Shown here in pieces: positions 50,296 through 52,951 of a stretch of DNA of 64,000 nt. The stretch lies in NCBI RefSeq assembly GCF_003626975.1, contig NZ_CP032616.1:5370001-5434000 (forward strand). The letters run 5' to 3'. The position numbers and the translations under genes were made by a program. Every line of letters begins with the position of its first letter. The first letter of the stretch is position 1. This DNA is from Pseudomonas sp. DY-1. Lineage in GTDB: Bacteria > Pseudomonadota > Gammaproteobacteria > Pseudomonadales > Pseudomonadaceae. The notes below the pieces were generated by a model. It ran no database searches. It saw nothing but the letters and a program-made list of their open reading frames with translations, and was not told the origin of the DNA.

Positions 50296-50321
50296 AAAAG
50301 GCACCCGTCGGGTGCCTTTCT
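50296..50321. terminator. Bidirectional terminator, thioesterase and MshEN-type gene
   Basis: 10-bp stem AAAGGCACCC (50297-50306) / GGGTGCCTTT (50310-50319) with a 3-nt loop, T residues on both strands. Confidence 0.88.
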
Positions 50322-50336
50322 CGTATCCCGCCTGGT

Positions 50337-51017
50337 TCAGTTCCGCATGCTGATCTTCAGGGATGCCTGCGACAGATCGATGTTGTTCAGGGTCAGGCTG
50401 CCGAAACTCTGGTCCCGTGGTGCGCCGGCCACACGGATATTCTCGAAGCGCAACTCGCCGATCGAACTGGGCAGGCGCAGGTTCACCGAACCATCCGGGT
50501 TGACCACCGAGGTCATCTTGCTGGTGTCGTAGGCCACATCCTTCATCGAGGTCTCTGCGTCCAGGCCGTCCAGCACTGGCATCACCAGCCGCGCCAATTG
50601 CTTCACTGCACCCAACCCATCGCCCTGCTCCGCTTGCAGGAAAAGGCCCTGCAGAACGTCGTCCAGGCCCTGGGCGCTGACATTGCTCATCTCCAGGTCG
50701 CTCAGCGGACGCAGGCCCTGCGGGGTCTCCTGGCGGCTGATACTGGCCGGCGGCTGCAGGCGCTGGATATCGGCGCTGGCCATCTGGAAGGGGCTCATCA
50801 ACGCAGCCACAAGGGTAGCTGCCAGACGCAGATTGCTCTGTTTCTTCAGGGCCTTGGTCAGTTGCTTCTGGGTTAGCAGGCCTTGCGCTATCAGTACTTC
50901 ACCCAGCCGCATCTTGCAGGTGAGTTGCATCTTGATTGCGGCATCCAGCTGCTGGGAGTTGATTAGACCCTTGTTGATGAGGATCTGCCCCAGGCGGGAG
51001 TTCATTTGGTTGGCCAT
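50337..51017 (-). CDS. Stand-alone MshEN-type c-di-GMP-binding protein with membrane segment
   Basis: 226 residues. Residues 8-31 and 37-60 are two 24-residue RLGxxL...L...L..A(I/L)xxQ motifs separated by a 5-residue spacer (LTCKM), the known layout of MshEN domains, which bind c-di-GMP at the N-terminus of type II/IV secretion ATPases. Here the domain is not attached to an ATPase. A hydrophobic segment follows (LRLAATLVAALMSPFQMASA, about 64-83), then a mainly polar C-terminal domain (residues 84-226). It could be a membrane-attached receptor. The gene is single, with a bidirectional terminator. Function not known. Confidence 0.8.
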   Translation of the reverse strand: MANQMNSRLGQILINKGLINSQQLDAAIKMQLTCKMRLGEVLIAQGLLTQKQLTKALKKQSNLRLAATLVAALMSPFQMASADIQRLQPPASISRQETPQGLRPLSDLEMSNVSAQGLDDVLQGLFLQAEQGDGLGAVKQLARLVMPVLDGLDAETSMKDVAYDTSKMTSVVNPDGSVNLRLPSSIGELRFENIRVAGAPRDQSFGSLTLNNIDLSQASLKISMRN

Positions 51018-51112: not shown

Positions 51113-52951
51113 TCAGTGTGTTTGCGCCAGAGTGCGATCAGCGGTAACACCGGGTTGCGCTTCGGTTTCGATCAGGGACACGAGGGTCCAGTCCTTCTCG
51201 GGTACGAAGTCCGTCGGGTTGCCGATCAGGTGCACCCAGCCCCGTGGGTCTTGTGCCAGCAGCAGGGTCGCGCGGTTACCGTGCAATGCCTGGTATTCCT
51301 CCCAGCCGAAGGCGGCGGTCAGCGTAGTGGTCCGAACGTCGGCGCCCTTGGCCAAGTAGCTGGCGAATTGCGGAAAGGTCAGTGGCTGGTTGCCCAGCGG
51401 TCGGCCCCGGACCGTTTCACCGGCACGGTGCTTCTCGCTGCGTCGACTTTCATGGCCGCTGGGCAGGGTGAAGCGACGCTGGGCACTGAAGTCATGACGG
51501 AAATGCATGCAGGCCAGGGCATTGAGTTCACTGGAAGGTGATAGGGCCAGCAGATGGCCGAGGCCCACCAGGTCGAGGTGCGCTTCGGCGTGTTGCGATG
51601 TGGGATTGCCGAAGTAGGTGGGTAGGTTGTCCATGCGCGCGGCACGAATGTTTTCCCAGCTGGAGTCGGTTAGCAGCACACGGCTGCCCAGGTTCTGCAG
51701 CGCCTTGCCGACCTCCCGGGCCACAGGATTGGCGCCGATGATGAGAAAGCCCGAGGGGGCAGGTTCGGCAACCTTCAGGAGTCGAGCCAGCGGACGCGCG
51801 GTGGCGCTTTGCAGTACCACGGTGCCGATGATCACCAGGAAGGTCAGAGGGACCAGCAGTTGCGCTTGCTCGTGGCCAGCCTCGATCAGACGTAGGGAGA
51901 AAATCGCCGACACCGCCGCCGCGACTATCCCGCGCGGAGCGATCCACGCCAGCAGCGCCCGCTCGCGCCAATTGAGGCTGGATCCCCAAGTACTGACTGC
52001 GACGTTCAGCGGTCGTGCGATGAACTGGATCACTGCCAGTAACAGCAGAGTCGCCGGCCCCATGGCGATAAGGGCGGCGAAGTCCATGCGCGCGGCAAGG
52101 AGGATGAACAGTCCTGAAATCAGCAGCACGCTGAGGTTTTCCTTGAAGTGCAGGATCTGCCGTACATCCACGCCACGCATGTTGGCCAGCCCCATGCCCA
52201 TCACGGTCACCGCCAGCAGCCCGGACTCATGCACCAGTAGGTTGGCAATGATGAACACCCCGAGTACCGCCGCCAGGGCTGCAAGGTTCTGCAGGTACTC
52301 CGGCAGCCAATGGCGCCGCATGACCACGCCGAACAGCCAGCCTCCAACAGCCCCCAGCAGGCAGCCACAGGCGATAACACTGGTAAAAGTAGAGAGGCTC
52401 GCGATCCAGCCGCCGTCGTCGCGGCTGACGATGAAGCTGAACACCACTACCGCCAGCAGCGCTCCGATGGGGTCGATGACGATGCCTTCCCAGCGCAGGA
52501 TGTTGGCGATCGACGAGCGCGGTCGCACGACGCGCAGCATCGGAACAATCACAGTGGGACCGGTGACCAGGGTCAGGGTGCCGAACAGCAGCGCCAGTTC
52601 CCAGGAGAAATCCAGCAGCCAGTGCGTGGCGATCGCGATCACCGCCCATGTCAGAAGCGCGCCGACAGTCACCATTCGCCGCACCACGCTGCCGATTTCG
52701 CGCCATTCGGAGACGTGCAGGGTGAGGCTGCCCTCGAAGAGGATCAGTGCCACCGACAGGGAAATCAGCGGGAACAACAGCGGGCCGAACAGCGCCTCGG
52801 GGTCCAGTAGGCCGGTCACCGGTCCGCTGAGTATGCCGGCCACCAATAGGAAGAGGATCGCCGGCAGACGCAGGCGCCATGCCAGCCACTGGCTGAACAG
52901 CGCAGCCGCGCCTATACCGCCCAGGCCCAGCAAGATGTGGTGTTCGCTCAT
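51113..52951 (-). CDS. CPA1-type Na+/H+ antiporter with C-terminal nucleotide-binding (RCK-like) domain
   Basis: 612 residues. The first ~390 residues have about 12 membrane helices with GTLTLVTGPTVIVPMLRVVRP and APRGIVAAAVSAIFSL typical of CPA1/NhaP proteins. The C-terminal cytoplasmic part (GFLIIGANPVAREVGKALQNLGSRVLLTD) has a Rossmann-like TrkA-N motif. It exchanges Na+ or K+ for protons and may be regulated by nucleotide binding. It is divergent from xerD, 76 nt apart. Confidence 0.9.
   Translation of the reverse strand: MSEHHILLGLGGIGAAALFSQWLAWRLRLPAILFLLVAGILSGPVTGLLDPEALFGPLLFPLISLSVALILFEGSLTLHVSEWREIGSVVRRMVTVGALLTWAVIAIATHWLLDFSWELALLFGTLTLVTGPTVIVPMLRVVRPRSSIANILRWEGIVIDPIGALLAVVVFSFIVSRDDGGWIASLSTFTSVIACGCLLGAVGGWLFGVVMRRHWLPEYLQNLAALAAVLGVFIIANLLVHESGLLAVTVMGMGLANMRGVDVRQILHFKENLSVLLISGLFILLAARMDFAALIAMGPATLLLLAVIQFIARPLNVAVSTWGSSLNWRERALLAWIAPRGIVAAAVSAIFSLRLIEAGHEQAQLLVPLTFLVIIGTVVLQSATARPLARLLKVAEPAPSGFLIIGANPVAREVGKALQNLGSRVLLTDSSWENIRAARMDNLPTYFGNPTSQHAEAHLDLVGLGHLLALSPSSELNALACMHFRHDFSAQRRFTLPSGHESRRSEKHRAGETVRGRPLGNQPLTFPQFASYLAKGADVRTTTLTAAFGWEEYQALHGNRATLLLAQDPRGWVHLIGNPTDFVPEKDWTLVSLIETEAQPGVTADRTLAQTH

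Follow-up and report, generated by a model that had tools for sequence, protein, structure and literature searches.

A signal-peptide-like segment and a FilA-like module behind the MshEN domain of the PA3740 family: a candidate c-di-GMP input into the Fil filament system of Pseudomonas

The gene, its surroundings and its orthologue PA3740

The window, which is the whole stretch of 64,000 nucleotides from Pseudomonas sp. DY-1 that was analysed, contains a gene for a protein of 226 amino acids (P0001) that is read on the minus strand from 51017 to 50337. The initial annotation had these coordinates right, but the strand has to be amended; frame 1 of the plus strand is interrupted by two stops across 50337..51017. 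The following features were assigned:

50337..51017, minus strand: whole gene (226 amino acids), PA3740 orthologue, consisting of MshEN domain, signal-peptide-like segment and FilA-like module
50838..50996, minus strand: MshEN c-di-GMP domain, residues 8-60 (24+5+24), assigned by pattern and by NF053729
50772..50837, minus strand: signal-peptide-like segment, residues 61-82 (SNLRLAATLVAALMSPFQMASA), with R64, a hydrophobic core at 65-77 and A-S-A at 80-82
50715..50771, minus strand: variable linker, residues 83-101, with low conservation and gaps (residues 83-99)
50670..50714, minus strand: FilA-type (C39-like) leader LRPLSDLEMSNVSAQ, residues 102-116, with conserved Q116, assigned by profile-profile alignment to the FilA leader
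50340..50669, minus strand: FilA/DUF6160-like module, residues 117-226, predicted to be exported, assigned by hhalign, profile A5 and BLASTP
50296..50316, minus strand: inverted repeat resembling a terminator, GGCACCC-GAC-GGGTGCC with TTTT behind it, 3' of the stop, found by eye and unflagged by the scan

A thioesterase gene lies on one side and a cation/proton antiporter gene on the other, with rplS (named by eye) and xerD further out. P0001 is identical over its full length to 73% with P0049 of P. aeruginosa and to 75% with the homologue of P. aeruginosa PA7, at whose locus five of five genes are matched (this gene, rplS, the thioesterase gene, the antiporter gene and xerD). P0049 carries LKKALKKQTNLR, with L55, L59 and Q62 at the positions published for PA3740. 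Because of the full-length identity, the matched PA7 neighbourhood and the presence of the published peptide in P0049, the gene is, judged by sequence, the orthologue of P. aeruginosa PA3740, and L55/L59/Q62 of the latter correspond to L53/L57/Q60 in P0001. Both have the same MshEN signature, full-length similarity and a common neighbourhood, and no essential difference between them was seen. Among the 26 loci that were fetched from relatives, xerD was matched within 4 kb in all 26, and the thioesterase gene was without useful match in seven, two of which are short. For the antiporter gene (window positions 51113-52951, minus strand), blastn gave nothing useful in 14 of the 26 loci.

PA3740 itself has been described before. 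A passage of a 2016 paper states that the c-di-GMP-binding motif 55-LxxxLxxQ-62 was identified in PA3740 and uses the protein to illustrate how MshEN can be fused to a domain that is uncharacterised (PMC5013675), so that the view of the present gene as a new free-standing MshEN protein has to be given up. The L55/L59/Q62 motif and c-di-GMP binding of PA3740 also appear in a passage of PMC8789108, and a 2026 paper terms its MshEN domain “probably functional” (PMC12943098). According to further excerpts, a relA spoT double mutant has increased PA3740 (PMC7122816), whereas fleS or fleR mutants, in which c-di-GMP is high, did not form less biofilm when PA3740 was deleted (PMC8335546). The latter source places PA3740 among PilZ domain-containing proteins, while a MshEN domain is what is found in the sequence. 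Neither a link between PA3740 and Fil nor the nature of the PA3740 output domain was found in literature searches, which covered open-licence papers.

The MshEN domain and the segment behind it

The MshEN consensus used here, RLGxxL[LVI]xxG[LVIF][LVI]xxxxLxxxLxxQ, was taken from a figure legend in PMC12943098. Residues 8-31 of P0001 agree with it at 10 of 11 positions, I28 replacing a leucine, and residues 37-60 agree at 11 of 11, with LTCKM as the five-residue spacer; the full 24+5+24 signature that had been read from residues 8-60 is thereby confirmed. The profile NF053729 (c-di-GMP_motif) is matched at 53 of 53 positions with 75 bits (cut-off 38) and an E-value of 2.9e-21, which places the match far beyond chance. 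Invariant in an alignment of 92 sequences, which reaches down to 29% identity to P0001, are R8, L9, G10, L13, Q31, L38, G39, E40, L53, L57 and Q60. The N-terminal domain also has the MshEN fold, as the initial annotation had expected. It has the signature and the fold in common with the N-terminal domains of MshE, PilB and GspE, but whereas these proteins possess a C-terminal ATPase, profile searches of the 226 amino acids of P0001 gave no match to an ATPase domain after MshEN, and the earlier statement that none follows agrees with this. Full-length PA3740 reportedly binds c-di-GMP, and for its orthologue P0001 such binding is predicted. Signature, fold and the reported binding of PA3740 also speak for the earlier suggestion of an ATPase-less c-di-GMP receptor that may act on the envelope by another route.

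Several homologues from Marinobacter (P0243, P0251, P0257, P0268 and others) are annotated as “pilus assembly protein PilB”. With 239-248 amino acids they are too short for the ATPase, and the name has probably been carried over from the MshEN domain. In family f7, the homologue (L047:2358-3215 and L048:2402-3247, minus strand) adjoins a protein with a PilZ-like motif, recognized by eye, which is possibly a second c-di-GMP protein.

Residues 61-82 correspond to the membrane-like segment of the initial annotation. A hydrophobic stretch is indeed present, in which a single arginine is followed by some 13 residues, hydrophobic for the most part, and by A-x-A at the end. Its best 19-residue Kyte-Doolittle mean of 1.22 is weak for a transmembrane helix and lies below the 1.39 of the FilA signal peptide, and the stretch has more the look of a Sec signal peptide than of a plain transmembrane anchor. 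In 121 close homologues, A82 is found in all and A80 in 118. Among 120 distant homologues, position 80 is occupied by alanine (98) or serine (22), and P76 and Q78 are retained; position 82 is variable there, with asparagine in 58 and alanine in 49, so that the position of the putative cut site, if there is any, is uncertain. The export of the C-terminal part is best supported by loci L062 and L063 of G339 and G248, which belong to a different family. In both genomes, tandem paralogues of this part that lack an MshEN match lie directly 3' of a full MshEN fusion. These paralogues (L062:6125-6658, L062:6852-7373 and L063:6959-7552) start with ordinary-looking signal peptides, as judged by eye. 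By position, a like pattern of match places is present in G275 and G319.

The FilA-like module and the distribution of Fil genes

The “polar C-terminal domain” of the initial annotation is present, but it is better read as a FilA-like module than as an unknown domain. FilA (DUF6160, PF19657) is a putative pilus system protein that possesses a signal-peptide-like segment ahead of its leader, as does P0001, and its leader and module align with the P0001 family over 113 columns. In the hhalign comparison of 121 close and 120 distant homologues with FilA, these columns extend from the leader to the C-terminus with Prob 91.5 and an E-value of 8.6e-7, and the score of 42 compares with at most 19 for 60 column-shuffled targets; an earlier run had been limited to the final 46 columns (Prob 86-88.5). 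With the diverse profile A5, the FilA of the own genome (P0122) is recovered at an E-value of 5.3e-6 over positions 14-144 of 147, and BLASTP aligns residues 180-222 of P0001 with P0122 at 42% over 43 amino acids. The Pseudomonas-only profile A3 missed P0122 in the own genome and found there only an ORF of a DUF6160 cluster (E 0.008). The FilA profile matches 7 of 20 ORFs that were found by the C-terminal profile and no other ORF in those loci, and an intermediate (L079:1329-2144) combines MshEN with a FilA-like “..VSGQGGINV..” (“..AIDDAGLESVSGQGGINV..”) and matches the FilA profile with an E-value of 1.8e-8. From these profile comparisons we infer that the C-terminal part is homologous to FilA/DUF6160. 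The Pfam model of DUF6160 (PF19657, gathering threshold 27 bits) gave no match to P0001 even at E-values up to 10, and because it is below Pfam detection, P0001 is called FilA-like here and not a member of DUF6160. It further differs from FilA in the MshEN domain in front, in a longer linker before the leader and, in the close set, in an alanine in place of a glycine. Structure models of the C-terminal part were poor, with mean pLDDT values of 50 and 58.

This alanine is found at the end of the leader. Q116 is retained in 116 of 121 close homologues (arginine in the other five) and in 119 of 120 distant ones, and is preceded by alanine in all 121 close homologues and by glycine (84), alanine (35) or serine (1) in the 120 distant ones. 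In 120 aligned FilA sequences, a glycine precedes the leader-end glutamine in every case, a Gly-Gln end that P0001 does not have, as it carries Ala-Gln instead. On its own, the P0001 leader scores 10.0 bits and ranks at the top of 565 frames of the window, with 18 of 5000 shuffles reaching its score, but an unrelated frame in another locus (L004) outscores it with 11.4 bits.

The own genome has DUF6160 matches at six places. At 1.69 Mb, P0122 (FilA, 59 bits) is followed by genes with matches to FilB (a C39 peptidase, 284.9 bits), FilC (338 bits) and FilD (524 bits). Each of the four matches is under the high cut-offs of these models; the FilC-matching gene also matches FapF with 72 bits. The present gene, at 5.42 Mb, does not adjoin fil genes. 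The DUF6160 cluster at 5.20 Mb (L033:5096-10106) comprises four adjacent ORFs with DUF6160-type starts (348, 361, 202 and 774 amino acids), one of them just below the Pfam cut-off, and these may encode additional Fil-like proteins that are exported; FilB is matched nowhere else in the genome than at 1.69 Mb.

With an E-value of 9e-9, P0122 matches 9xfv, a solved chain that is labelled “bacteria pilus (like)” (25 chains). The first residue of 9xfv aligns to residue 44 of P0122, directly after ..DDSALSGVTGQ, although this N-terminal stretch alone is a weak match (i-E 0.025). A chain start just after GQ would fit the removal of a leader at this point, as expected beside a C39 peptidase, and FilA-type proteins resemble filament-subunit precursors in sequence. 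The direct profile comparison of the C-terminal module of the P0001 family with 9xfv was non-significant (E 1.9 and 1.1).

The distribution of the gene was followed in a family sample of 148 genomes, with E <=3.5e-65 for the full-length gene and E <1e-100 for strong FilB. P0001 has matches in 58 of these genomes, 38 of them full length, 19 weak in long frames (mainly MshEN) and one a remnant; DUF6160 occurs in 40 (39 above the cut-off) and strong FilB in 39. All 38 genomes with the full-length gene have FilB and DUF6160, and of the 110 without it only one has FilB, which gives a table of 38, 0, 1 and 109 and a Fisher value of 1.3e-34 that is not corrected for phylogeny. As a control, weaker C39 matches, which are presumably FapD-type and were found in 44 genomes, are unassociated with the gene (table 13, 25, 31, 79; p 0.54). 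FilB, a protein separate from P0001, is a candidate partner by co-occurrence. In the own genus (18 genomes), 15 genomes have both gene and FilB, and G078 and G127 have neither. The last of the 18, G086, lacks strong FilB and has a weak DUF6160 match (1.5e-4); what it retains at the syntenic place is a remnant of the C-terminus. In G032 of the family sample, FilB and DUF6160 are present but the gene is missing. At this G086 locus (L069) only the broken C-terminal remnant is left, and most of the antiporter stretch is also without match.

An order sample comprised 244 genomes, with E <1e-14 for strong A5 matches; FilB was searched for in the family, in the DUF6160-positive genomes and, among DUF6160-negative genomes outside the family, in G154 and G230. 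A5 gave 26 matches, and all 22 strong ones come from genomes that have both DUF6160 and FilB. Leader-less MshEN fusions from one family (L066 in G154 and L080 in G230) are weak A5 matches, and their genomes have no DUF6160 or FilB match. Conversely, 11 of the 33 DUF6160-positive genomes lack a strong A5 match, and eight of these 11 have FilB (E <1e-70). In a class sample of 274 genomes, A5 matched only in G000 and G181, both members of the order; FilB-type peptidases occur beyond the order too. Since Fil systems without the gene exist, it can be at most an accessory regulator.

Possible roles at the envelope

We propose, with a probability of about one half, that P0001 serves the Fil filament system as an inside-out receptor of c-di-GMP, anchored by its signal sequence. 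Its MshEN domain would bind c-di-GMP in the cytoplasm, as reported for PA3740, and residues 61-82 would act as a Sec signal sequence that brings the remaining chain to the periplasm. The FilA-type leader (..LSDxEMSxVSAQ) and the FilA-like module may there engage the Fil machinery, likeliest FilB or FilA, as homology and co-occurrence suggest. Binding of c-di-GMP could then shift the anchoring or presentation of the module, and thereby tune how the Fil filament matures or assembles. C39 peptidases generally need a glycine at the second-last leader position, and because the close set has alanine where FilA has glycine, the Pseudomonas leader might be a pseudo-substrate or a slow substrate of FilB, and the protein not an ordinary pilin.

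It is also conceivable, but in our view unlikely, that P0001 is a c-di-GMP-gated minor subunit, whose chain, once exported, would be cleaved by signal peptidase behind A82 and by FilB behind Q116 and leave a module that serves as minor or initiating Fil subunit, with the MshEN domain of the precursor gating export. The A-x-A with which the segment ends in the close set would suit such a route, as would the nearly invariant glutamine at the leader end, the glycine before it in 84 of 120 distant homologues and the start of the 9xfv chain after a GQ leader; the invariant alanine of the 121 close homologues, set against the invariant glycine of the 120 FilA sequences, does not, and asparagine, found at position 82 in 58 of 120 distant homologues, suits signal peptidase less. 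The same alanine makes a pseudo-substrate plausible, and a membrane-bound receptor might sequester FilB via the leader, c-di-GMP setting whether FilB is free. LapD, a c-di-GMP receptor that controls the periplasmic protease LapG, offers a precedent, which would be an analogy in the way of working only (a cytoplasmic c-di-GMP domain, a periplasmic output and a periplasmic cysteine protease), as its domains are presumably unrelated to those of P0001. That strong leader-bearing homologues are confined to FilB genomes, and leader-less fusions occur in two genomes without FilB match, would agree with such a control, but the leader ends in GQ and is presumably cleavable in those 84 distant homologues, and we regard this possibility as doubtful too.

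A cytoplasmic role in swarming or flagellar functions, with residues 61-82 as a mere membrane anchor and a C-terminus unrelated to Fil, would be in keeping with passages that term PA3740 a swarming motility protein (PMC5013675) and report its transcript, like that of AmrZ, as down in a motABmotCD mutant (PMC3174259). The conservation of the leader, the homology to FilA, the co-occurrence and the signal peptides on the MshEN-less paralogues argue against this role, which we hold to be quite improbable. Hardly probable either is that the co-occurrence with Fil reflects shared ancestry only and the likeness to FilA a convergent composition of beta-strands and signal peptide. The Fisher test ignores phylogeny, the single-sequence leader score is modest and a Pfam match is lacking, but gene and FilB are concordantly absent within genera that hold positives (g1: G078, G127; g9: G068, G135; g14: G014, G030, G054), the remnant in G086 is decayed where strong FilB is missing, and the control C39 matches are unassociated with the gene; convergence is further opposed by the profile-profile score, which none of the 60 column shuffles approached.

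That the PA3740 family contains MshEN was already known; what the sequence comparisons would add is the nature of the output domain and a tie to Fil. Tentatively, and with less confidence than in the receptor for the Fil system as such, we suggest a c-di-GMP receptor that is placed directly ahead of the Sec signal peptide in a precursor resembling a filament subunit, so that the messenger would act on export, anchoring or C39 processing as a dedicated input into Fil in Pseudomonas and its order. If this is true, c-di-GMP would take a route across the inner membrane that is unlike both the MshE/PilB motors and LapD. With a FilA-like module as its uncharacterised second domain, PA3740 would point to a concrete c-di-GMP target in Pseudomonas and relatives, which would be a little-studied envelope filament, kin to the Fil and Fap systems.
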